Assembly: GCA_040218145.1 (NCBI GenBank)
Contig: JAVJQK010000128.1
Span: forward strand, 1 to 64,000
Reading direction: 5' to 3'
DNA length: 64,000 bases
From: Sandaracinaceae bacterium
GTDB taxonomy: Bacteria > Myxococcota_A > Polyangia > Polyangiales > Sandaracinaceae
Shown here: positions 7,380-57,262 of the stretch, piece by piece
Layout of the letters: the number at the start of each line of letters is the position of its first letter
Position numbering within the stretch: position 1 is the first letter of the stretch
The notes under the pieces: model-generated
Database searches by the model: none
The model's input: the letters and a program-made list of their open reading frames with translations, nothing else
Told to the model about the DNA's origin: nothing
Position numbers and translations under genes: made by a program

Positions 7380-8645
7380 ATGCGCTGGACGTGTCTGCTC
7401 GCGCTCGTCGTCGTCATCGGCTGCGACTCCGTCGCCTCGCTCGACGGCGGCACCGACGCCGCGTTCCGTCCGACCGGCGACGACGACGGCGACGGAATCG
7501 CCAACCTGTGGGAGGGCGAGGACCGCGACAGCGACGCCGACGGCACGCCGGACCGGCTCGACCTCGACAGCGACGACGACGGCGTGAGCGACGCGATCGA
7601 GGGCGCGGGCAGCACCGCGCGTGTGCCTCCGCCCGACAGCGACGGAGACGGGCGCGCGGACTTCGTCGACCCCGACAGCGACGACAACGGGATCCTGGAC
7701 AGCGACGAGCGCGACGCGGACACCGACGGCGACGGCCGCGTCGACCGCGTGGACGAGGACGACGACGGCGACCTCTTGCCCGACGCGCGCGAGCTCGAGC
7801 ATCCGGAGGCGCGCGAGGACACCGACGGCGACGGCCTCGTCGGGCTGCGCGATCCGGACAGCGACGGAGACACGATCCGCGACGGCGACGAGCCCGTCGA
7901 CGCCTTCGAGGACGGCACGTGGGACCTGTACCAGCTCGACAGCGACGCGGACGGCTTCCCCGACGCGGAGGAGGCGGGCGACGCCGATCTGGGCACCGCC
8001 CCCGCCGACTCGGACGGAGACGGCGTGGCCGACTTCTGGGACCTCGACAGCGACGCCGACGGGCTCCTCGACGCCGACGAGCGCGCGCTGGGGACGCGAC
8101 GCGATCTCGGAGACACCGACGCGGACGGCTACGACGACCGGACCGAGGTGCGCGCGTGCCCGAGCTTCGACGCCAGCTGCGCGAGCGACGCGACCGATCC
8201 GACGCGGACCCCGATGGGGCGAGTCGCGGACGCGGTCGTCGTCGCGCGCGGCGCGGCGCCCGATCCGGATCGCGTCACCTTCGTGTTCGAGCTCGCGGCC
8301 GCGGCGAGCGAGCTGCGGGTGGTCTACGCGGACGGCGAGCGCGATCCGGTCGACACGCGCGCGGCCTTCGTGGATCACGTCGCGCTCCGCACGGACGCGG
8401 GGCCGTTCGGCTGCGAGGCCTTCGGGGCGGCGGACACCGACGCCGACGGACACGTGGACACGTTCCGCGGCGCGCCGGCCGGCGCCACCGTCTGCGTCGA
8501 GCTGGTCGCCGCGCCCAACGACTCCGTCGCGCCGGGCAGCGACGCGAGCCAGATCTTCCTCGGGTTCGTGCGCCTCGTGGACGGCGCGGGCGACGGCGTC
8601 GACTACCAGGGCGTGGCCTTCCGCGTCCCGCGCGCCGGCTCCTGA
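7380..8645 (+). CDS. Lipoprotein with thrombospondin type-3 (Asp-rich, Ca-binding) repeats
   Basis: 421 residues with a lipobox VVIGC (Cys15). Residues about 35-250 are nearly all Asp-rich units of the type DSDGDGRADFVDPDSDDNG, which bind Ca2+ in thrombospondin type-3 and OmpA-linked stalk proteins. A compact C-terminal domain follows (about 260-421) with two Cys that may pair (CEAF and VCVEL). Probably a surface stalk or adhesin. It is divergent from the Hsp70 gene with only 92 bases between starts. I see no OmpA peptidoglycan-binding domain. Confidence 0.8.
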   Translation: MRWTCLLALVVVIGCDSVASLDGGTDAAFRPTGDDDGDGIANLWEGEDRDSDADGTPDRLDLDSDDDGVSDAIEGAGSTARVPPPDSDGDGRADFVDPDSDDNGILDSDERDADTDGDGRVDRVDEDDDGDLLPDARELEHPEAREDTDGDGLVGLRDPDSDGDTIRDGDEPVDAFEDGTWDLYQLDSDADGFPDAEEAGDADLGTAPADSDGDGVADFWDLDSDADGLLDADERALGTRRDLGDTDADGYDDRTEVRACPSFDASCASDATDPTRTPMGRVADAVVVARGAAPDPDRVTFVFELAAAASELRVVYADGERDPVDTRAAFVDHVALRTDAGPFGCEAFGAADTDADGHVDTFRGAPAGATVCVELVAAPNDSVAPGSDASQIFLGFVRLVDGAGDGVDYQGVAFRVPRAGS

Positions 8646-13641: not shown

Positions 13642-13687
13642 GCTTCAGCCTATCGCGCGCGTCCGCGGATGTCAGTTTCGGCCGCGC

Positions 13688-15962: not shown

Positions 15963-17555
15963 CTACAGCCCGAGCAGGTGCAGGGTGGTCTCGCGTCGCT
16001 CCACCGCGGCGCCCGAGGCGAAGACGGCGACCGACGCGTCGAAGGGCGCGGCCGCGCTCACGCCGGCGAAGAAGGGGTAGGAGAGGCGCGCGTCGGCGTC
16101 GAGCGCGTGGGTGAAGCGGCGCTCGAGCGCGTCGGCGCGGAGCACGGCGCCGCGGGTCCCGCGCGCGAGCAGCGCCACCGATCCGATCGCGATCCAGTCG
16201 CGGGGGGCCGCGGGCGAGCGCACCGAGGCGAGGGTCTCCGGCGTCGCCGCGCTGGTGCTGCCGACCTCGAGCGCGTCGTCGTGGACGGTCGCGCCGAACG
16301 CGCCGAGGTCGAGCGCGATGAGCTGCGCGTGGCTCGCGTTGCTGGACGGCGCGCCGGCGCGGACCTCGAGCGCGAAGCGGGCCTCGGCGCCGGCCGCGAG
16401 GGACGGCGCGCGCGCGAGGAAGAACGACTGCCGGTCCAGGCTCGCCCCCGCGAGGTGCGGCGGGGTTCCGGTCGCCATCGGCCAGCTCTCCCCGCCCGCG
16501 TCGACCCGCACCCCGACCGCGTCGGTGGCCGGCATCGTCGTGGCGCTCACGTGCGCGAGCACGAGGTGGCGCCCGGCGCTGGACGGCGTGAAGCGCAGCT
16601 CGGCCAGGCCGACCCACCCCTCGGCCTGGGTGAAGAAGCGGTTCTCGAGCGCCGCGTCGCGGTAGGCCGCGCCCGGGATGGGGAACGCGACGAGCCGCAG
16701 ATCGCGCAGCGTCGCCGTCGCGCCGCTCAGCCCCTGGAGCTCCACGTCCACCTGGCGGGTCCCGCCCGCGTCGAGGAACGCGATGGCCGACCACGGTCCG
16801 CCGCCGCTGCTGCCGCTGCGCGTCACCTCGGCGCCGTCGACCGTCAGCCGCGCTTCGGCCCGCTGGGCGCCCGCGACGTCCGCGCTGAGCGCGCCGCTCG
16901 CGAGCACGAGCCAGGCGCCGTCGCGCGCGTCGATGGAGAGCGCGCCCCCGAGCGCGCTGGCGAAGCCGCCGCCCTGCGACGCGGTGGGCACGTGGCGCTG
17001 GACGAAGGCCGGGCTGGCGGCGCCGCCGTCGGGCGGGTCGGCGTCAGGGTCGTCCGGCCTGGCGTCGCGGGGGCCGCCGTCGTCGGCGCCGCCGTCGGGC
17101 GCGTCGACGCAGCGATCGCCCGTGCTCGTGATGCACGCGTCCGCGCAGACCCCGCCGCGGCAGGTGGTCGCGCCCGTGCACGCGAGGCCCGCGTCGCAGC
17201 CCTCCGTGAACCTCAGGACGATCTGGAAGGCGGCGCCCGCGACGTAGCCGCCGTTCACCGCCACCCGTGCGACCGGCGCTCCGTCCGCGTCGAGCAGGCG
17301 CCCGATGACCGTGAAGCGCCGCGCCGCGTCGCCAGCGCGAGGGCGCAGCCGCACCGCGACCGGGAGCGAGCTGAGCGACTCGTCCACCTCGAGCACGGTG
17401 TCCACCTCGAGCACGGTGTCCCCCTCGGTGCTGAAGACGCGCACCTCGATGCGGGCCGCGGCCGCCTCGAGCGCGGGGTCGGCGGTGAACAGCACGTCGA
17501 CCCGCGTCGGGTCCGCGCAGCCGAGGATCAAAAGGCCGAGGAGGGCACGCCTCAT
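15963..17555 (-). CDS. Lipoprotein with N-terminal lipoprotein module and beta-rich domain
   Basis: 530 residues with a lipobox LILGC (Cys13). Residues 14-130 form a beta-rich domain ending in a Cys cluster (CDAGLACTGATTCRGGVC) that recalls the N-terminal modules of the lipoproteins at 24210-25433 and 51962-53893, though it is more divergent. An Asp/Gly/Ala linker follows (about 150-185), then about 340 residues with no Cys, rich in beta-type sequence. Residues DTVLEV are repeated because of an exact 18-base duplication (17383-17418). The start is ATG 17555 with TACCCT seven bases upstream and no ribosome site. Function unknown; surface location inferred. Confidence 0.7.
   Translation of the reverse strand: MRRALLGLLILGCADPTRVDVLFTADPALEAAAARIEVRVFSTEGDTVLEVDTVLEVDESLSSLPVAVRLRPRAGDAARRFTVIGRLLDADGAPVARVAVNGGYVAGAAFQIVLRFTEGCDAGLACTGATTCRGGVCADACITSTGDRCVDAPDGGADDGGPRDARPDDPDADPPDGGAASPAFVQRHVPTASQGGGFASALGGALSIDARDGAWLVLASGALSADVAGAQRAEARLTVDGAEVTRSGSSGGGPWSAIAFLDAGGTRQVDVELQGLSGATATLRDLRLVAFPIPGAAYRDAALENRFFTQAEGWVGLAELRFTPSSAGRHLVLAHVSATTMPATDAVGVRVDAGGESWPMATGTPPHLAGASLDRQSFFLARAPSLAAGAEARFALEVRAGAPSSNASHAQLIALDLGAFGATVHDDALEVGSTSAATPETLASVRSPAAPRDWIAIGSVALLARGTRGAVLRADALERRFTHALDADARLSYPFFAGVSAAAPFDASVAVFASGAAVERRETTLHLLGL
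17383..17418. repeat. Perfect 18-base tandem duplication inside a coding region
   Basis: TCCACCTCGAGCACGGTG occurs twice in a row (17383-17400, 17401-17418), adding six residues in frame. Confidence 0.8.
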
Positions 17556-17774
17556 CCCCGGCAGGGTACCGCGTCGAGGCGCCCGAGGGCTTCAGCCGGC
17601 TCCACTCCGTCCCTTCCGCTCCCGCACGCGTCTCCCCCGCTCGGCCAGGCGCGAGTCGGCCGAGCCCCGGCGTTGCAAGGGCCGCAGCCGCTTCGGCCCG
17701 AGCGACGACGGCCTCTGCCCCCGCTGCCGTGGCGCGCTCGCGGAGGACTGATCGGCGCCGCGAGCTCCCCTGGC
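17556..17774. other. Gap holding a possible remnant of a zinc-ribbon reading frame
   Basis: On the plus strand 17662-17751 reads a short Cys-containing end, RRCKGRSRFGPSDDGLCPRC, with no suitable start codon. It could be a decayed or unusual small gene; I do not call it. The rest holds only the promoter region of the 17555 gene. Confidence 0.25.
17563..17568 (-). promoter_or_regulatory. Candidate -10 box (TACCCT), leaderless type
   Basis: TACCCT lies 7 bases before ATG 17555 and no Shine-Dalgarno is present. No recognisable -35 was found. Confidence 0.45.
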
Positions 17775-24209: not shown

Positions 24210-25433
24210 TCACGGACAGGCGTCGCAGCCCGCGCCGGTCGACGTGCACCCGGATCCGCTCTCGCATCCGGGGCGGCACATGACGGTGGCGCACGCGCTG
24301 CCCGTGCAGCCGACGTCGCAGGCGCAGGCGGCGCGGCAGTCGACCGCCTGGCACGCCGTGTCGCCGCAGGTGATCGCGCAGTCGCCTTCGCAGATGATGC
24401 CCGCGCACGAGCCCACGCCCTCGCACGCGATCTCGCAGGTGCCGTCCGGGGGGCAGGTCACGCGGTTGCAGTCGTCGTCCTCGCGGCACGCGACGGTGCA
24501 GCGGCCCGTGCCGCACCGGATGTCGGGGCAGCCGCGGAACGAGTCGCACTGCACGTCGCAGTCGCTCGAGGCGCCGCACTCGACGACGCCCCGGCAGCCT
24601 CCGAGCCCGACGCACTCCACCGTGCAGGGCGCGTCGCCGCAGAAGACGCCGCCGCGGCACTCGTTCACCGAGCAGCGGACGCGACAAGGCACCCCGTCCG
24701 GGCAGCGCGCGGTCCGCTCGTTGATGATCTCGCACACCCCGGCCACGCACTCCCCCGGGCAGACCGCCGCGCAGTCCGCCGAGCCGGCGTCCGGCGTCCC
24801 CGCGTCGAGCCCGGCGTCGAGGCCGGCGTCGGGCGCGCCCACGCAGCCCACGCGCGGATCGCAGCGCCCCTCGCACCGAGCGTCGTCGCCGCGCAACCCG
24901 CACGAGCCGGCCAGGCAGACGGGCGCCGCGCACGGGACGGAGCCCGCGGAGCACTCCGAGTCCGCGACGCACTCGGGCGGCGGGCAGGCCTCCGGGGTCT
25001 CCGGGGTGCACTCGGGCGAGACACAGACGCCGCCGACGCAAGACGTCGCGGCGGGGTCGCCCGCGCCCGGACAGCGGACCCCCTCGCAGCTTCGCGTCAT
25101 CACGACCGTGATCGCGCGCGCGTCCCGGGTCTGGACGGCGACGACGCGGCTCGCGATCGACGCCTCGCCTCGCTCGAGCGTGACGCGCACGAAGAGCACG
25201 TCGCTGGGGACGGTCAGCTCCGCCAGGCGCGTCGGGGTCACGAGGCTGTCGCGCAGCGAGACGTCCTCACGCGCCGAGGCGAGGGGCGCCGCGAAGTCAT
25301 CGCTCCTCGCGACGTCGACGCGCGCGTGGGTCACCTCGAGGCCGGGCGCGTAGTCGGACCGCAGGCTCACGAGGAGCAGCGGCTCCGGCTCGCATCCGGC
25401 GATCAACAGCAGGAGGATCCAGGCGCCTCGCAC
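24210..25433 (-). CDS. Cys-rich lipoprotein with repeated Cys solenoid
   Basis: 407 residues with a lipobox LIAGC (Cys14). The N-terminal module (15-130) is close to that of the lipoprotein at 51962-53893, sharing a beta domain ending TVVMTRSCEGVRCPGAGDPA and the CVGGVCVSPEC Cys cluster. An Ala-Gly-Asp linker (DAGLDAGLDAGTPDAG) follows, then about 170 residues with a Cys roughly every 4-7 residues (CAGIICEGDCAITCGDTAC), a regular pattern like a disulfide-stapled beta-helix. The start is GTG 25433 with TAGCGT seven bases upstream; GTG 25442 overlaps that box. Function unknown; secreted surface role inferred. Confidence 0.75.
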   Translation of the reverse strand: MRGAWILLLLIAGCEPEPLLLVSLRSDYAPGLEVTHARVDVARSDDFAAPLASAREDVSLRDSLVTPTRLAELTVPSDVLFVRVTLERGEASIASRVVAVQTRDARAITVVMTRSCEGVRCPGAGDPAATSCVGGVCVSPECTPETPEACPPPECVADSECSAGSVPCAAPVCLAGSCGLRGDDARCEGRCDPRVGCVGAPDAGLDAGLDAGTPDAGSADCAAVCPGECVAGVCEIINERTARCPDGVPCRVRCSVNECRGGVFCGDAPCTVECVGLGGCRGVVECGASSDCDVQCDSFRGCPDIRCGTGRCTVACREDDDCNRVTCPPDGTCEIACEGVGSCAGIICEGDCAITCGDTACQAVDCRAACACDVGCTGSACATVMCRPGCESGSGCTSTGAGCDACP

Positions 25434-25440
25434 GGGCGCC

Positions 25441-25446
25441 ACGCTA
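25441..25446 (-). promoter_or_regulatory. Candidate -10 box (TAGCGT), leaderless type
   Basis: TAGCGT lies 7 bases before GTG 25433, with no ribosome site. It helps choose GTG 25433 over GTG 25442. Confidence 0.45.
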
Positions 25447-26478: not shown

Positions 26479-26507
26479 TTGTCGAGGGCTCGCGCGCCCG
26501 GTAGCGT
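26479..26507 (+). promoter_or_regulatory. Sigma70-type promoter, leaderless (TTGTCG-17-TAGCGT)
   Basis: TTGTCG at 26479-26484 and TAGCGT at 26502-26507 are separated by 17 bases; ATG 26514 follows after 6 bases and no Shine-Dalgarno is present. This is the best example of the leaderless pattern in the window. Confidence 0.65.
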
Positions 26508-26513
26508 CGAGCC

Positions 26514-28952
26514 ATGCGCTTCGTCTGCTTGCTCTCATTGTCTCTCCTCTGGCTCGCCGGATGTGACTGCGAAGGCCCGACCGAGTCCTGCGCCGTCGAC
26601 GGCGAGTGCGCCGCGGGCGAGCGCTGCCAGGACGGGCGCTGCGTGCCCCGCCCCGACGGCGGCGAGGACGACCTGGACGCGGGCCGCGACGGCGGCGGGC
26701 GACCGGACGCCGGGATGCGCTGCAGCCGCGACGAGGAGTGCGGAGACGGCGTGTGCCTGGACGGCGCGTGCTGCGCGTCGGAGGAGGCGGTCTGCGGCGC
26801 GCAGTGCTGCGGCGGGGGCGAGACCTGCTTCGGCGGCGCGTGCGTCGTGCCCGGCGACACCTGCATCACCAACCGCGACTGCGCGACGGGGGAGTACTGC
26901 GAGCCCGGGCTCGGCGAGGGCGGCGGCGGGAGCGACGGAGGCGTGCCCGACGGCGGCGTCTCGGGCTGCGGTCCCGTGCGCGGGGCGGGGCGCTGCCTGG
27001 CCTTGCCGCCTTCCTGCGACGAGGCCGCGCCCGGCGAGCCCTGCGTGAGCGCGAGCTGCGAGTTCCGGCCGCCCGTCGAGGATCTGAACGCGGTGCCGCA
27101 GTGGCGCTGGGATCCCACCACCGCGGTCGAGCAGCCGGACCGCGTGGACGTCTGGTCCACCCCGATGGTCGGGCGCATCTTCGACTCCAACTGCGACGGC
27201 GCGATCGACGAGCTGGATCCGTCGGCCATCGTCTTCGTCTCCAACGACGTGCGGGCCGGCGCCTGCCACGGGCCCGATCTCTGCCGCCGCGGGGTGCTGC
27301 GGGCGCTCGACGGGGCCACGGGCCGGGAGCTCTGGTCGCTCGACGCGGCGGAGCCGGGCTCGGTCGGCTTCAGCGGCGTGTCCCTCGCGCTCGGCGACCT
27401 CGACGACGACGGCGTGATGGACATCGTCGCGATCACGGGCGAGCGGAGGCTCGCGGCGATCCGCGGCGACGGCACGGTGATGGCGGTCGGCGCCGACATC
27501 CTCCCCGTCCCGACCGAGACCGGCCTCGGGTGGGGCGGCGGCCTCGCGCTCGGCGACCTCGAGGGGGACGGCGATCCCGAGGTGGCGTGGCGAGGCGCGG
27601 TCTACACGTGGTCTGGCGGCACCTTCAGCCTGCGCTTCGACGTGCCGAGCGCGCGCGGCGGCTGGCCCCACGGGACCGTCACCACGTCGACGAGCTTCTT
27701 CGCCAACCTGGACGCCGACCCCGAGCTCGAGGTGCTCGCGGGTCGCACCGCGATCGACACCGACGGCAGCATCCTCTGGCAGCGCCTCGACCTGACCGAG
27801 GGCTTCGCGGCGCTGGGCGACTTCGACATGGCGAGCCCGTCGACGCCCGAGGTGGTGCTCGTGGGCGGCGGTGAGGTCGTGCTGCTCGACGCCGCGACGG
27901 GGGCCACGGTGCTGGGCCCGGTGTCCATCGGCGGGACCGGCGCGGGCGGGCCGCCGACGGTGGCCGACTTCGACGGCGACGGCGCGCCCGAGATCGGCGT
28001 CGCGCAGGCGAGCGTCTACGCGATGCTGAAGCCCGACTTCGCGGGCGGCACGATCGAGCGCGTCTGGACGGCGACCAATCACGACAACAGCTCTTCCGTG
28101 ACAGGGTCGACCGTCTTCGACTTCGAGGGCGACGGTGTGGCCGAGGTCATCTACAACGACGAGTGCTACATGTGGGTCTACGACGGGCCCACCGGCGCGG
28201 TGCGCTTCGCGGCGCCGACCAACTCCTTCACCGGCACCGAGGCCTCGCTGGTCGCCGACGTGGACGCGGACGGGCACGCGGAGATGGTCATGATCTCCAC
28301 CGGCGCCAACCCCGACAGCTGGCACTGCAACCACCACATGGGCGGCGCGGGCGGCTACCCGGCCTGGACGGCGCCGAGCTACGGCCGGGCGTGGCGCGGC
28401 ATCTCGGTCTTCCGGGACGCGGCCAACGCGTGGGTCGGCACGCGGACGATGTGGACCCAGCACGCCTACCACGTCACCAACACGTGCGATGATGCGGACA
28501 CGGCGTGCGATCCGGCGGGCGGCTACGGGGAGATCCCGCGCCGCCCCCGCGACAACTGGTCGCTGCCCTGGCTCAACAACTTCCGGCAGAACGTGCAGGA
28601 GGGCGGCATCTTCGACGCGCCCGACGCGGTGCTCGCGTTGCGGGTCGTCTGCACCGACCCGGTCCGCCTCGTCGCGTCGCTCCGCAACCAGGGCCGCGCG
28701 CTCTTGCCGCCGGGCGTGGTCGTGGCGTTCTTCCAGCGCGGCGCGCCGGACGTGGAGCTCGGCCGGGTGACGTCGACCGAGCCCGTGTTCCCCGGGCGCG
28801 TGCTCGAGCTGACCCTCGAGGCCCCGGCCGGCGTGCTGCCGACCGAGACCTTCTTCGCGCGGGTGATCGTCGATCCCGAGACGGCGACCTTCCGTGAGTG
28901 CCGCGAGGACAACAACGACAGCGAGGACGCGACCGGGCGCTGCCTGGAGTGA
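26514..28952 (+). CDS. Large FG-GAP/VCBS-repeat lipoprotein
   Basis: 812 residues with a lipobox LAGC (Cys17). The N-terminal 180 residues are Cys-rich (CAVDGECAAGERCQDGRCV type) with Asp/Gly linkers. The middle (about 200-600) has FG-GAP/VCBS Ca-binding blades (ALGDLDDDGVMDIVAITG, VADFDGDGAPEIGVAQ, VFDFEGDGVAEVIY), an integrin-like propeller. The final ~130 residues look like a CARDB-type Ig domain (RLVASLRNQGRALLPPGVVV). A His/Trp-rich patch (WHCNHHMGG) stands out. It is probably a surface adhesion or binding protein. Leaderless promoter upstream; convergent with the dodecin gene. Confidence 0.82.
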   Translation: MRFVCLLSLSLLWLAGCDCEGPTESCAVDGECAAGERCQDGRCVPRPDGGEDDLDAGRDGGGRPDAGMRCSRDEECGDGVCLDGACCASEEAVCGAQCCGGGETCFGGACVVPGDTCITNRDCATGEYCEPGLGEGGGGSDGGVPDGGVSGCGPVRGAGRCLALPPSCDEAAPGEPCVSASCEFRPPVEDLNAVPQWRWDPTTAVEQPDRVDVWSTPMVGRIFDSNCDGAIDELDPSAIVFVSNDVRAGACHGPDLCRRGVLRALDGATGRELWSLDAAEPGSVGFSGVSLALGDLDDDGVMDIVAITGERRLAAIRGDGTVMAVGADILPVPTETGLGWGGGLALGDLEGDGDPEVAWRGAVYTWSGGTFSLRFDVPSARGGWPHGTVTTSTSFFANLDADPELEVLAGRTAIDTDGSILWQRLDLTEGFAALGDFDMASPSTPEVVLVGGGEVVLLDAATGATVLGPVSIGGTGAGGPPTVADFDGDGAPEIGVAQASVYAMLKPDFAGGTIERVWTATNHDNSSSVTGSTVFDFEGDGVAEVIYNDECYMWVYDGPTGAVRFAAPTNSFTGTEASLVADVDADGHAEMVMISTGANPDSWHCNHHMGGAGGYPAWTAPSYGRAWRGISVFRDAANAWVGTRTMWTQHAYHVTNTCDDADTACDPAGGYGEIPRRPRDNWSLPWLNNFRQNVQEGGIFDAPDAVLALRVVCTDPVRLVASLRNQGRALLPPGVVVAFFQRGAPDVELGRVTSTEPVFPGRVLELTLEAPAGVLPTETFFARVIVDPETATFRECREDNNDSEDATGRCLE

Positions 28953-29345: not shown

Positions 29346-29351
29346 TAGACT
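29346..29351 (+). promoter_or_regulatory. Candidate -10 box (TAGACT), leaderless type
   Basis: TAGACT ends 5 bases before GTG 29357 and 8 before ATG 29360; no Shine-Dalgarno. No -35 was recognised. Confidence 0.4.
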
Positions 29352-36828: not shown

Positions 36829-38919
36829 GTGGACCAGGCCGACCATCCCAGGTCCGACGCCGACCGGCTGCGGAGCTTTCTCGGTCACCTCATCGCGGGG
36901 TGCGCCGTGGCCGTGATCGGCTACCTCGTCGTCGGGATCCCGCTCCAGAGCGCGCCGATCCTCTACACCGCGGCGGTCACCATGGCGCTGGGCGGCGTGG
37001 TCTGGTGGGCGCGTCGGCGGGCCCAGCGAGGGCACACCGAGCACGCCGCGACCACGGTGGCGATCGGCATGTTGCTCGTCGCGCTCCTCGTCGCCCCCGT
37101 CTTCGGCTTCCTCTACCCGACTCTGGTGCTCGTGTGCCTGCTCGCGGTCGTCATCGCCATCCCCTACGTGGACCGGGCGCTGCTCCGCGTGCTCGTCCCC
37201 TCCGCCGTGGTCGCCGCGTTCGTGGTCAGCGTGGTCGGCCTCTGGCAGGACGCGCTGACGCCCGTGCCGCTGTGGGCCGAGCAGACGCTCCTCGTCGTGA
37301 CCTCGACCATCTCCGTGTACCTGAACATCACCATGATGGTGCAGGTGCACCGCCGGCTCCGGGAGACGCTCCAGTTCGAGCGGGAGGCGACCGAGGAGCT
37401 GGGGCGGGTCAACCGACAGCTCGAGGTCATCGTCGAGAGCTCCCCCGCGGCCATCCTCCTGCTCCGCCTCGATGGCACCGTGCTGTGGGTCAACCCGGCC
37501 TTCGAGCAGGTCTTCGGCTGGCGGACGGAGGATCTGGTCGGGCAGAAGCCCTCGCCCGTCACCGAGGAGACCGAGCCCGAGTTCCGGGCGAACATGGAGA
37601 AGCTCGCCGCGGGAGAGACCCTCAGGGGCGTCGAGGTCCGTCGGAAGCACAAGGACGGGCGCTGGGTGGACACGCAGGTCTGGGCCGCGCCGGTGCAGAT
37701 GCCCGAGGGTGACACCGCGGTCCTCTCGGTGATCGTCGACGTCACGGCGCGCAAGGAGGCGGAGCGGCGACTCGAGCAGGAGCGCTCGCGCGCGGAGGAG
37801 GCGTCGCAGGCGGCGCGGGTGGCTGAGCGCCGCAAGGACGAGTTCCTGGCCATGCTGGGGCACGAGCTGCGCAACCCGCTCGCCCCCATCACCACCGCGC
37901 TCGAGGTGGTGAAGATGAGCGGCGACGCGACGCACGAGCGCGAGCACGCGATCATCGCGCGGCACGTCCGGCACATGACGCGGCTCGTGGACGATCTCCT
38001 CGACGTCTCGCGGATCACCCGCGGCAAGCTCCAGCTCCGTCGGCGGAAGATCGATCTGCGCGGCGCGATCGATCAGGCGGTCGAGATGACCGCGCCGCTC
38101 TTCGAGGAGAAGCGCCATCGGCTCGAGCTCGATGTCCCGAACGGCTTCACGGTGAAGGGAGATCCCACGCGCCTGGCGCAGATCTTCTCCAACCTCCTGT
38201 CGAACGCGGCGAAGTACTCCGAGCCGGAGGGGGTCGTCACGGTGCGCGCGACGGCCGTCAGCGGCTCGGTGAAGGTCACCGTCGCCGACGAAGGGATCGG
38301 CATGAGCGAGGAGCTCGCCGCGTCCGTGTTCGACCTCTTCGTCCAGGCCGAGCAGGCGATCGACCGTGCGTCCGGAGGGCTCGGCCTCGGGCTGACCCTG
38401 GTGCGTAGCCTGACGCGGCTGCACGACGGAGAGGTCACCGCGAGCAGCCCGGGGCCGGGGCGCGGCAGCACGTTCGAGGTCCGGCTGCCGCTCGCGATGG
38501 GGGTGCTCGACTCGGTCGACAGCCTCCCGCCTCAGGAGATCGACCTCCCCTCGGTGCGCCGCGTGCTCGTCGTCGACGACAACGAAGACGCGGCGGAGCT
38601 GCTCGCGCACGGCCTGCGCCGTCGCGGCTTCGAGGTGGAGCTCGCGTTCGACGGACCGAGCGCGATCGACGTGGCCCGGGAGTTCTTGCCGGACGCGGCC
38701 ATCCTCGACATCGGCTTGCCGGTGATGGACGGCTACGAGCTCGCGGGGCGCCTGACGGGTCAGCTCGCCGAGCGCCCGCGGCTCGTCGCGGTGACCGGGT
38801 ACGGGCAGCAGAGCGATCGCGACAAGAGCGCGGCGGCGGGCTTCGACGTGCACCTCGTCAAGCCGGTCCAGATGAAGCAGGTGCTCGACGCGTTGAAGAA
38901 GGAGCGCCCGAGTCCCTGA
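36829..38919 (+). CDS. Hybrid sensor histidine kinase (PAS, HisKA, HATPase, receiver)
   Basis: 696 residues. About five membrane helices (20-160), a PAS domain (about 200-310: SSPAAILLLRLDGTVLWVNP), coiled coil, then HisKA H-box FLAMLGHELRNPL (His345), N-box FSNLLSNAAKY, G-box DEGIGMS and GGLGLGLTLV. A receiver domain closes the chain: VLVVDDNED, phospho-acceptor in ILDIGLPVMDGYE (Asp627), LVKPV. It senses in the membrane and passes phosphate His to Asp. No output regulator is adjacent. The GTG start is chosen by promoter position. Codirectional with malic enzyme. Confidence 0.9.
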   Translation: MDQADHPRSDADRLRSFLGHLIAGCAVAVIGYLVVGIPLQSAPILYTAAVTMALGGVVWWARRRAQRGHTEHAATTVAIGMLLVALLVAPVFGFLYPTLVLVCLLAVVIAIPYVDRALLRVLVPSAVVAAFVVSVVGLWQDALTPVPLWAEQTLLVVTSTISVYLNITMMVQVHRRLRETLQFEREATEELGRVNRQLEVIVESSPAAILLLRLDGTVLWVNPAFEQVFGWRTEDLVGQKPSPVTEETEPEFRANMEKLAAGETLRGVEVRRKHKDGRWVDTQVWAAPVQMPEGDTAVLSVIVDVTARKEAERRLEQERSRAEEASQAARVAERRKDEFLAMLGHELRNPLAPITTALEVVKMSGDATHEREHAIIARHVRHMTRLVDDLLDVSRITRGKLQLRRRKIDLRGAIDQAVEMTAPLFEEKRHRLELDVPNGFTVKGDPTRLAQIFSNLLSNAAKYSEPEGVVTVRATAVSGSVKVTVADEGIGMSEELAASVFDLFVQAEQAIDRASGGLGLGLTLVRSLTRLHDGEVTASSPGPGRGSTFEVRLPLAMGVLDSVDSLPPQEIDLPSVRRVLVVDDNEDAAELLAHGLRRRGFEVELAFDGPSAIDVAREFLPDAAILDIGLPVMDGYELAGRLTGQLAERPRLVAVTGYGQQSDRDKSAAAGFDVHLVKPVQMKQVLDALKKERPSP

Positions 38920-38986: not shown

Positions 38987-41263
<2,277 letters not shown>

Positions 41264-41272
41264 GCTCGACCG

Positions 41273-42940
41273 GTGGAGACGGAGGGGGCGACCGCCACCG
41301 AGCGCTGGCTCGGCGGCGCGCAGACGTCGGTGCCCGGCTCGGCGGCCGACACGCTGCTCGAGCTGAACCGCCGCGCCGACCTGGCGCGCGGCGGCGCGTG
41401 GCTCTCGGCGCCCGCGGCCCTCGCCCTCGGCGGCGCCCGCTTCATGGTGGAGGGCGCGGCCTCCTGGGTCGGCGTGCTCCTCGTGACCAGCGCGGTCGCG
41501 TTCTTCTCCATCGGGTGGCTCCATCGGGGCCGGGCGGCCGGGAGGAGCGCCGGCCTGTCGGTCAGCGCCGTCGCGCTGCTGACCTTGACCGGGATGGCGT
41601 GGCTCGACGGTGGCCTGTGGTCGGACGGCGCGCTGTGGCTGCCATTCGTGCCCCTCGTCGCGGTGCTCCTCTGCCGCCGGAGGGTCGCGCTCGGCGTGGC
41701 CGCGCTCGCGGGCGGCGGCGCGATCGCGCTCGTGGGCGCGCACGCGCTCGACGTCCTCTCCGTGCCCCCCGGGGCGCAGCTCCTCTTGCGAGGCCCGGCG
41801 ATCCTCGGGGCCCTCGCGTTCGCCACCGCGCTCGGCGACCTCTACGAGCGCGCGCGGCGGGTCTCGGCGGCCGAGAAGCACCGGCGCGAGACGCGCCTGC
41901 GCATCCTGCTCGAGGGGATCCCCGACGCGCTCGTGCGGATCGACGCCGGCGGGGTGGTGCTCGACTATCGCGACACCGACCTGACCCCGCTCCATCTCCC
42001 CGCGGATGCGGTGGGTCAGCCCCTCGACGCGTTCCTCCCGGAGGACGCGGCGCAGGCGGTCCGCCGACAGATGACCGAGTCGCTCGAGGGGGCGCTCATC
42101 GCGCGCGAGCACCGCTGGCCGCACCGCGAGGGCGGGATGCGCGACGTCGAGGTGCGCACCCTGCCGCTACAGGGCGAGGTCGTCGCGCTGATCCGCGACG
42201 TGACGGAGATGCGCGCCGCGGAGCGCCTGCGCGACGAGTTCGTCGCCGCGGTCAGCCACGAGCTGCGCACGCCGCTCACCTCCATCGAGGGCTCGCTCAA
42301 GCTCCTGAGCGGCGGCATCGGTGGGCGCGTCGAGGGCAAGGGCGCGGAGCTGCTCGAGCTCGGCCTCCGGAACGCGACGCGGCTCCGCAGCCTGATCGAC
42401 GACCTGCTCGACGTGCGCAAGATCGCCGAGGGGCAGTTCTCACTGGAGCTGCGGGAGGTGCAGGTCGACGAGGTGGTGGCGCGTCTCGAGCAGCTCCATC
42501 GGGCGGCGGCGGAGGCGCGGGGCCTGCGCCTGGTCACGCGGGTGGAGGCGACCGGTCTGGTGCTGGCGGACCCGGAGCGGCTCGTCCAGGCGATCTCCAA
42601 TCTCCTGTCGAACGCGATGCAGCACTCGCCCGAAGGCGGCCGCGTGACCCTGGTGGCGCGAAACGCCGAGGGCGCCATCCGCATCGCGGTCGAGGACGAA
42701 GGCGAGGGCGTCGCGCCGCGTGACCGTCAACGTATATTTCGACCGTTCGAGCAGGCGGTCGCCAAGCGACACGGCGTGGGCACCGGGCTCGGGCTCCACA
42801 TCGCGCGCGAGCTCGTCGAGCGCATGAACGGGCGCATCGGCGTCGAGGAGGCGCCCGACGGCGGGGCGGCGTTCTTCGTGGAGCTCCGCCGCGTCGAGGT
42901 GGTCGAGCCCGCCTCATCCCGCAGCGCCACCCGGACGTGA
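41273..42940 (+). CDS. Membrane sensor histidine kinase with PAS domain
   Basis: 555 residues. Five or six membrane helices (about 38-195), a PAS-like domain (about 208-310: ILLEGIPDALVRIDAGGVVL), then HisKA FVAAVSHELRTPL (His329), N-box ISNLLSNAMQHS, G1 EDEGEGV and G2 GTGLGLHIAREL, ending in basic residues. It autophosphorylates on His in response to an unknown membrane or cytoplasmic cue; no receiver domain is attached. It starts 9 bases after malic enzyme. Convergent with the MATE gene (4 bases apart). Confidence 0.88.
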   Translation: METEGATATERWLGGAQTSVPGSAADTLLELNRRADLARGGAWLSAPAALALGGARFMVEGAASWVGVLLVTSAVAFFSIGWLHRGRAAGRSAGLSVSAVALLTLTGMAWLDGGLWSDGALWLPFVPLVAVLLCRRRVALGVAALAGGGAIALVGAHALDVLSVPPGAQLLLRGPAILGALAFATALGDLYERARRVSAAEKHRRETRLRILLEGIPDALVRIDAGGVVLDYRDTDLTPLHLPADAVGQPLDAFLPEDAAQAVRRQMTESLEGALIAREHRWPHREGGMRDVEVRTLPLQGEVVALIRDVTEMRAAERLRDEFVAAVSHELRTPLTSIEGSLKLLSGGIGGRVEGKGAELLELGLRNATRLRSLIDDLLDVRKIAEGQFSLELREVQVDEVVARLEQLHRAAAEARGLRLVTRVEATGLVLADPERLVQAISNLLSNAMQHSPEGGRVTLVARNAEGAIRIAVEDEGEGVAPRDRQRIFRPFEQAVAKRHGVGTGLGLHIARELVERMNGRIGVEEAPDGGAAFFVELRRVEVVEPASSRSATRT

Positions 42941-48554: not shown

Positions 48555-48560
48555 TAGGCT
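48555..48560 (+). promoter_or_regulatory. Candidate -10 box (TAGGCT), leaderless type
   Basis: TAGGCT ends 6 bases before GTG 48567; no Shine-Dalgarno is present. Confidence 0.45.
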
Positions 48561-50696: not shown

Positions 50697-50725
50697 ACGA
50701 CATTCGACCGATCCGGAGGTAGGCT
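50697..50725 (+). promoter_or_regulatory. Candidate promoter (ACGACA-17-TAGGCT), leaderless type
   Basis: ACGACA (50697-50702, GACA core) and TAGGCT (50720-50725) are 17 bases apart; GTG 50733 starts 7 bases later, with no ribosome site. Confidence 0.45.
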
Positions 50726-50732
50726 ACGCGGC

Positions 50733-51959
50733 GTGAATCGCGAGCTCTTGGCGTCGCTGGTCCTGGCGACGAGCCTCTTCTCATCGTCGTGCGCGGTGGA
50801 CGACGTGTCCCTGGTGGGAAAGCTCTGCCCCTGCGAGCGCGAGGGCTACCTCTGCGTGGCCGGGACCTGCCAGCCCGAGGGTAGCTGCGGCGGGGGCGGG
50901 CTCTACCAGGTGGGCGACCTGGAGGCGGAGTGGACGACGCCTCACGTGGTGCACTGGACCTGGAGTCGGTTGGACGACACGGACCCCAGTCCCCTCGAGG
51001 CGGTCGAGATCATCGTGGGTACGGCCGAGGAGAACGCCTTCGCGGTCGAGCGCTGCGCGTGCCGAAGAGCGTTGGGGCAGGACTGCGACCCCGCCTCGGG
51101 GGTTCGCGTGATCGGCCCCGCAGAGTATCGAGAGCTCGCCTTCGACAAGCTGCTGGGCAACACGATGGACGCGCACAACGTGCGCGAGGTGGCCACGCTC
51201 GGGCTCGAGCCCGACACGCGTCATGCGGCCGTGCTCGTCAGCCGGGATCGGAGCCTCGCGGGCGATCGGCCCCTCACGAGCGTGAGCAACGTCGCTTTCG
51301 CGCGGACCCAACCGATGCCGCGCGATCTCATCACCGTGTTCGATGAGGTGACGCCGCCTTCGTTCGGAGCCACCTATCCCGACGCTAGCTGCAATCCCCA
51401 CGTCGACGGGCTCGGCTATCGCCATCAGGTGGCCTGTCCGCCGCGTCCGGATCTGCGCGGGCGTTGCAAGACCGACGAGGAGCCGTGCCCGGAGTCGTGG
51501 CCGGGAGACGATATCGACGCCTGGTTGTGCGAGCCGGACATCCACCCGGAGCCCGAGTCGGCGTGCTGGATCAGCTTCCGCTGGCAGGGACTCGACGTCC
51601 CCGTCTCGCCGAGGCCGCTCCGCCCCGGGCGCTTCGAGACGGCCTACTACGAGATCACGGCCACGATGACGAGCGATCTCGACCTGGACTACGTCGAGTT
51701 CGAGACGCGGCTCACCGACGAGGTCGCGCGCGATTGGGAGGAGTTCGGGCGCGGCGGCCTGCGCATGCGCGGAGACGGGGTCGAGCACGTGTACGAGATC
51801 CCGCTGCGATCGCTGATCGACAAGGTGGAAGAAGGCGTATTCCTACCCCACACGCCCGAAGATCTGGCGGCGGAGCAGGCGCTGACGTGGCTCCGCATCG
51901 GCTCGAACTTCGCCCACGGCGCCGATCTCCACATCCGCTCGATACGCCTCCGCTTCTGA
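50733..51959 (+). CDS. Lipoprotein of unknown function
   Basis: 408 residues with a lipobox SSSC (Cys20). A short Cys-rich stretch (CPCEREGYLCVAGTCQPEGSC) resembles EGF-like stalks; the rest is a mixed beta domain with YQVGDLEAEWTTPHVVHWTW and several Cys pairs. No enzyme motif is visible. It is followed 2 bases from its stop by a convergent beta-helix lipoprotein gene. Surface location inferred. Confidence 0.65.
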   Translation: MNRELLASLVLATSLFSSSCAVDDVSLVGKLCPCEREGYLCVAGTCQPEGSCGGGGLYQVGDLEAEWTTPHVVHWTWSRLDDTDPSPLEAVEIIVGTAEENAFAVERCACRRALGQDCDPASGVRVIGPAEYRELAFDKLLGNTMDAHNVREVATLGLEPDTRHAAVLVSRDRSLAGDRPLTSVSNVAFARTQPMPRDLITVFDEVTPPSFGATYPDASCNPHVDGLGYRHQVACPPRPDLRGRCKTDEEPCPESWPGDDIDAWLCEPDIHPEPESACWISFRWQGLDVPVSPRPLRPGRFETAYYEITATMTSDLDLDYVEFETRLTDEVARDWEEFGRGGLRMRGDGVEHVYEIPLRSLIDKVEEGVFLPHTPEDLAAEQALTWLRIGSNFAHGADLHIRSIRLRF

Positions 51960-53899: not shown

Positions 53900-53905
53900 A
53901 GGATA
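53900..53905 (-). promoter_or_regulatory. Candidate -10 box (TATCCT), leaderless type
   Basis: TATCCT lies 6 bases before GTG 53893; no Shine-Dalgarno is present. It is a good match to TATAAT-type boxes. Confidence 0.5.
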
Positions 53906-57256: not shown

Positions 57257-57262
57257 AGCATA
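57257..57262 (-). promoter_or_regulatory. Candidate -10 box (TATGCT)
   Basis: TATGCT on the minus strand is 9 bases before ATG 57247, so the leader would be only a few bases. Confidence 0.35.

Follow-up and report, generated by a model that had tools for sequence, protein, structure and literature searches.

Candidate −10 boxes at gene starts in the window

The window analyzed here is a 64,000-nucleotide stretch (contig JAVJQK010000128.1, assembly GCA_040218145.1) of a Sandaracinaceae genome of 11,056,361 bases in 148 contigs; its GC content is about 73% (69 to 75% along its length). On the plus strand it carries an FG-GAP lipoprotein gene (26514..28952; Pfam FG-GAP_3, 2.5e-15; lipobox LAGC from the translation) that we predict to be leaderless. 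A candidate −10 box, TAGCGT (26502..26507, plus strand), stands before its ATG at a gap of 6, where “gap” denotes throughout the number of bases separating a TANNNT box and the start codon. A −35-like hexamer, TTGTCG (26479..26484, plus strand), precedes this box with the 17-base spacing that the initial annotation of this DNA had described. The encoded protein is 99.9% identical to one on SHBB01000189.1 from Sandaracinaceae bacterium MED-G138, a member of the Myxococcota lineage whose isolate name we take to suggest marine sampling.

Seven starts in the window (17555, 25433, 26514, 41273, 48567, 50733, and 53893) had been singled out as strong examples of this layout, and a TANNNT box is present at a gap of 6 or 7 before all seven. 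On the plus strand, the boxes besides that of 26514 are TAAGCT (41261..41266; gap 6 to GTG 41273), in which TAA is the stop codon of the gene at 38987-41263, TAGGCT (48555..48560; gap 6 to the GTG 48567 of an isoamylase-like gene), and a second TAGGCT (50720..50725; gap 7 to GTG 50733). On the minus strand, they are TACCCT (17563..17568; gap 7 to the ATG 17555 of a lipoprotein-like gene), TAGCGT (25441..25446; gap 7 to GTG 25433), and TATCCT (53900..53905; gap 6 to the GTG 53893 of a lipoprotein-like gene encoding a beta-helix protein). The same starts were said to lack a ribosome binding site. Six of them indeed have no Shine-Dalgarno-like stretch, and the exception, 50733, has a GGAGG 13 bases before its GTG, which is too distant for a usual Shine-Dalgarno site. 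Relatives of the genes at 50733 and 41273 are mostly distant once outside the species.

We called starts with our own simple gene caller, which scores coding potential and ignores upstream sequence, so that its choices are blind to the box. It agrees with the proposed start at 26514, 41273, 48567, and 53893. The starts at 17555, 25433, and 50733 are plausible alternatives with lower scores (−3.9, −1.1, and −2.8, respectively), and at 50733 the caller's own choice is GTG 50796. Among four sites that had been listed as weaker cases, the one that stands is 29357, with a full box (TAGACT, 29346..29351, plus strand) at a gap of 5 to GTG 29357, or of 8 to ATG 29360, of a molybdopterin oxidoreductase gene. 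The remaining three fall short: the sequence at 7380 is TACCCG, which lacks the final T; 15906 has TACCTT at a gap of 8, but this start is not among the plausible ones of its gene; and 36829 has TAGTGC, which is no TANNNT. The suggestion that the box picks between two in-frame GTG codons is accordingly divided in its outcome, being plausible at 25433, whose box overlaps the rival GTG 25442, and failing at 36829, which we rejected as an example.

Two boxes on the minus strand had gone unremarked. TAGGCT (13647..13652) lies at a gap of 5 to the ATG 13641 of a lipoprotein-like gene for which the blind caller slightly favors TTG 13599, and TATGCT (57257..57262) lies at a gap of 9 to ATG 57247, a gene predicted either to be leaderless or to have a leader a few bases long. 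Allowing gaps of 4 to 10, 7 of the 42 window genes have a box at the blind start, and 6 more have one at a lower-scoring alternative start.

Enrichment and promoter-like features of the box

Counts beyond the window come mostly from 1.61 Mb of the same genome (GC content, 71.9%). A first sample of 1.21 Mb held 849 genes with 843 usable starts, and the larger sample of 1.61 Mb held 1157 genes with 1143 usable starts (1140 to 1142 in some counts); some of the stretches analyzed in this work were picked in part for holding relatives of the 26514 gene or of the 41273 kinase gene. At gaps 5 to 10, a box precedes 152 of 1142 starts; when the 40 bases upstream of each start were subjected to mononucleotide shuffling 200 times, 23.3 ± 4.3 starts had one (maximum, 35). 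The expectation that the box is commoner than chance before starts is thus borne out by a strong excess in the 1.61-Mb sample. Boxes at gaps 6, 7, 8, 9, and 10 numbered 62, 25, 16, 10, and 9 among the 843 starts of the first sample, and each position past gap 11 held 0 to 7. In the larger sample, gap 6 accounts for 70 of 1143 starts over a background of 2.77 per position, followed by a tail of 25, 13, and 10 boxes at gaps 8, 9, and 10, and the excess over gaps 5 to 10 corresponds to 11.9% of genes. As a control in the first sample, we used 15,020 ATG/GTG codons that are in frame but internal to genes; before these, the box occurs at a rate of about 0.02% per position (0 to 0.07%). When any plausible start was allowed, 218 of 1140 genes had a box at gaps 5 to 9, versus 43 of 1140 at gaps 20 to 24.

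A stricter pattern, GGTANNNTCN4CRTG, occurs 58 times in the whole genome, compared with 9 times backward and 9 times with a gap 10 bases longer. Its 13 sites in the sample, where the backward control has 4, comprise 7 called starts, 2 alternative starts within 150 bases, 2 in-frame starts farther upstream (216 and 273 bases before the called one), and 2 intergenic sites. The strict motif also opens a 93-residue open reading frame outside the gene calls on the plus strand near position 7783 of L011 (G000:C30), a possible missed small gene. We considered in-frame stop codons as the origin of the TA and rejected this explanation because boxes of the form TA[CT]NNT make up 36 of the 62 at gap 6, and because gaps 7, 8, and 10 set the TA out of frame.

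Within the box, the first T, the A, and the last T are conserved and the middle is free; the variants TA...G, TA...C, and TA...A show a weak peak at gap 6 too. Of 170 box genes, 102 have a G at −14, the extended −10 position; among 477 genes lacking a box, 168 do. This G is present in 68% of the 62 gap-6 starts and in 40% of the 25 gap-7 starts, a small set in which the preference is absent. The TG extension follows the same comparison, with 35 of 170 box genes versus 31 of 477. C at −1 is mildly more frequent in the 62 gap-6 starts (65%) than in all starts (51%), and the purine at +1 is a consequence of the start codons being ATG or GTG. A −35 TTG at spacings of 16 to 18 occurs in 15 of 170 box genes, compared with about 1 per position elsewhere in the set. 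We rejected a strong general −35 element; a −35 is present, but it is rare and weak. TTG at matching places was also seen in 29 of the 477 genes without a full TANNNT, and these may be further leaderless promoters with imperfect −10 boxes. The share of genes with such starts is probably above the figure of about 12% once imperfect boxes and mis-called starts are counted.

The frequency of the box differs among gene contexts. A box precedes only 1 of 156 genes overlapping a same-strand neighbor upstream, versus 151 of 986 others (p = 1.4e-9), so that it is nearly absent where a promoter is least needed. Divergent genes have it in 78 of 428 cases, and co-directional genes in 19 of 137, 33 of 210, and 19 of 188 cases at distances of 0 to 29, 30 to 99, and more than 100 bases; contrary to expectation for a promoter, it is rarer in the last of these groups than at 0 to 29 bases. 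Start codons differ as well: the box precedes 89 of 660 ATG, 62 of 432 GTG, and 1 of 50 TTG starts, the last of which are possibly often mis-called. Use of ATG and GTG but hardly of TTG is expected if transcripts lacking a leader can be translated only from AUG or GUG; with the TTG calls less certain, we count this contrast as supporting evidence only. Shine-Dalgarno sites of 5 bases were found at 163 of 1142 starts, versus 36 in a control stretch, and coincide with a box at just 5 of these 1142 starts (odds ratio, 0.18; p = 4.6e-6). Neither signal (box at gaps 5 to 10 or 5-mer Shine-Dalgarno site) precedes 832 of the 1142 called starts; therefore, either the called starts are noisy or mis-called, or another mode of initiation is common.

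Gene families, related genomes, and stop codons inside boxes

The initial annotation had placed the box especially before lipoprotein genes. The larger sample does not bear this out: boxes precede 15 of its 116 lipoprotein-like genes and 127 of the remaining 1024 (Fisher p = 0.88), where “lipoprotein-like” rests on a home-made signal-peptide rule with strict and loose versions. The outcome is similar when any plausible start is counted (23 of 116 versus 195 of 1024; p = 0.80), when the comparison is confined to divergent genes and those at least 30 bases after their neighbor (12 of 91 versus 108 of 735; p = 0.87), and under the looser rule in the first sample (19 of 174 versus 99 of 668). The emphasis on lipoproteins is an impression from a small window, in which lipoprotein-like genes happen to follow four of the seven strong sites. 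A real and functional association with lipoproteins might still be read from the FG-GAP lipoprotein family, where 15 of 27 scorable members have a box, but six of nine FG-GAP paralogues in the sampled part of the genome are without one. Given also that neither version of the rule yields a lipoprotein excess in the sample, we regard such an association as very improbable.

The 26514 protein contains FG-GAP repeats, has 19 matches in its own genome, and has relatives matched in 10 of 10 family genomes searched, a set that includes its own genome and one genome of the same species. We scored the N termini of this family by eye, requiring a box at a gap of 6 to 9 before the lipobox-bearing start. 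A box is present in three genes of the genome itself (on contigs C128, C122, and C65) and in 12 fetched relatives (L023, L024, L071 to L075, and L081 to L085); L023 and L024, which are 67% and 63% identical to 26514, both have it at gap 6. It is absent from six genes of the genome itself (C41, C148, C44, C35, C36, and C33) and from six fetched relatives (L025, L026, L076, L077, L086, and L087). Excluded from the 27 were same-species copies (L022, L070, and L080), the C128 and C122 genes recovered again (L069 and L079), and sequences with a doubtful or no N terminus (L027, L078, and L088; the gap-7 box of L078 is likewise doubtful). For each genome we fetched the best matches, and these are mutually related, so that the set is not random. 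Many family members have Cys-Asp-Cys at the lipobox. In L076, from genome G001, a box near position 907 lies 16 bases before the ATG with a GGAGG between them; the arrangement may represent a short leader bearing a Shine-Dalgarno site, and a shift from a leaderless to a Shine-Dalgarno-led start.

In two other genomes, the excess over gaps 5 to 10 was 7.5% (G001; 312 starts) and 19.3% (G015; 99 starts), the latter figure being biased upward because the stretches were picked from pattern hits. In G104, with a GC content of 55%, the excess was 0.3% among 99 starts, a small sample of which the caller covered 70% as coding. We also counted the strict pattern in 38 genomes at the family and order level and in 143 of the phylum, our own genome being part of both sets. 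Forward counts clearly exceeded backward counts in, for example, G002 (54 versus 2), G004 (43 versus 7), G084 (35 versus 5), and G111 (43 versus 10). The distribution is patchy, and many genomes are near or below the control (e.g., G016, 26 versus 42); since the pattern was tuned to our own genome, equality elsewhere is no proof of absence. G028, a genome of the same order, behaves unlike most in that the control pattern with a gap of 16 occurs 41 times versus 7 backward, perhaps reflecting a repeat or another promoter layout.

At 41273 and four other starts among the 1157 sampled genes, the box opens with the stop codon of the preceding gene. A literature search on stop codons serving as promoter boxes listed papers on E. 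coli and, for the most part, on actinobacteria, and we claim no priority for this arrangement. At stop-to-start distances of 8 to 12 bases, a range chosen post hoc, TAA or TAG accounts for 14 of 31 stops, versus 16.2% overall (binomial p = 1.5e-4), and in the first sample all nine stops at distances of 9 to 10 bases are of these types. G001 has two stop-in-box cases in 316 genes, with TA-type stops in 2 of 8 cases at distances of 8 to 12 bases (p = 0.26); no such case occurs among 102 genes of G015. Across the whole genome, one pattern for TAA-type boxes occurred 14 times versus 11 backward, which is no clear excess. The stop-codon effect is thus small, and in this sample a need for some TA triplet near the right place would look the same as recruitment. 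We give roughly even weight to the proposal that some upstream stops have been co-opted to supply the TA(A/G) half of a leaderless −10 box for the gene that follows, one triplet ending translation of the first gene and starting transcription of the second, and that leaderless starts are gained and lost gene by gene, with families ranging from leaderless to Shine-Dalgarno-led between genera.

Predicted leaderless initiation

Based on these observations, we think it highly likely that the boxes are −10 elements of promoters for predicted leaderless genes, which would make up about 12% of sampled genes above background. From this position, a −10 element of the sigma-70 family (housekeeping type) would direct RNA polymerase to begin transcription on the start codon or no more than a few bases from it. 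Transcripts would then open with AUG or GUG and be translated without a Shine-Dalgarno site. As far as sequence can tell, the leaderless reading, already put forward in the initial annotation, is strongly supported by the position of the box, its gene context, the exclusion of Shine-Dalgarno sites, the choice of start codon, and the relatives. From these patterns we infer where transcription starts, which type of sigma factor acts, and that translation proceeds from a bare 5′ end. Given the usual spacing, the peak at gap 6 would have transcription begin with the first nucleotide of the start codon, and gaps 8 to 10 may represent leaders of 2 to 4 bases.

It is conceivable that the box acts in translation, as an A/U-rich contact for the ribosome or S1, instead of being a promoter element. 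It does lie at Shine-Dalgarno distance and tends to take the place of Shine-Dalgarno sites, and an AT-rich bias before starts is reported as a possible reflection of S1 binding in some phyla (PMC5397173). However, overlapping co-transcribed genes should need a translation signal too, and they are the genes from which the box is nearly missing; moreover, the fixed first T, A, and last T with variable bases between them, the preference for G at −14, and the excess of TTG at spacings of 16 to 18 are features of promoters. A role in translation therefore appears extremely unlikely. Somewhat better founded, though still unlikely in our judgment, is that the promoters are real but most transcripts carry a leader of 2 to 10 bases, or that expression comes mainly from a second promoter upstream with a normal leader. 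The tail of boxes at gaps 8 to 10 fits such leaders, as does the arrangement in L076 with its GGAGG between box and ATG, whereas the concentration of boxes at gap 6 favors initiation on the start codon itself.

Predicted leaderless genes of this kind resemble those of systems described previously. A TAnnnT leaderless signal was reported for high-GC genomes, including some delta-proteobacteria, of which 8 of 33 genomes had leaderless genes at an average of 15.8% (Zheng et al. 2011, PMC3160421). The genes described there share with ours the TAnnnT, the uninformative middle, and the high GC content; the main text of that paper names no Myxococc-, Sorangium, or Anaeromyxobacter, and the lineage studied here is Sandaracinaceae. 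In Mycobacterium tuberculosis, leaderless genes are reported to make up 26% of those with a primary start, with a TANNNT −10, no conserved −35, a preferred purine at +1, and C at −1 (Cortes et al. 2013, PMC3898074). That study differs from ours in phylum, in the higher share, and in having mapped 5′ ends, whereas our evidence is read from DNA. A leaderless start in mycobacteria is reported to require ATG or GTG (PMC4633059). In Deinococcus-Thermus, the −10 motif is likewise described as a TANNNT about 6 to 7 bases before the open reading frame, with no pathway bias reported and with the box exposing mis-annotated starts; the differences are that nearly one-third of genes have it there and that upstream sequences were reporter-tested (Zhong et al. 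2025, PMC12340547).

The phenomenon is thus already known in Actinobacteria, Deinococcota, and some delta-proteobacteria, and our results reveal no new mechanism. A literature search of titles and abstract openings returned no leaderless-gene paper for Myxococcus xanthus, Myxococcota, myxobacteria, Sandaracinus, or Sorangium cellulosum, and a search for genome-wide transcription start sites or 5′ untranslated regions in myxobacteria likewise found none. With these results, an uncultured marine Myxococcota lineage joins the bacteria with many probable leaderless genes. Because the box marks the start, it can aid start codon calls, and the ribosomes of this lineage are predicted to be adept at using AUG and GUG at the 5′ terminus. 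With its patchy pattern counts, the phylum lends itself to comparing how leaderless initiation is gained and lost.
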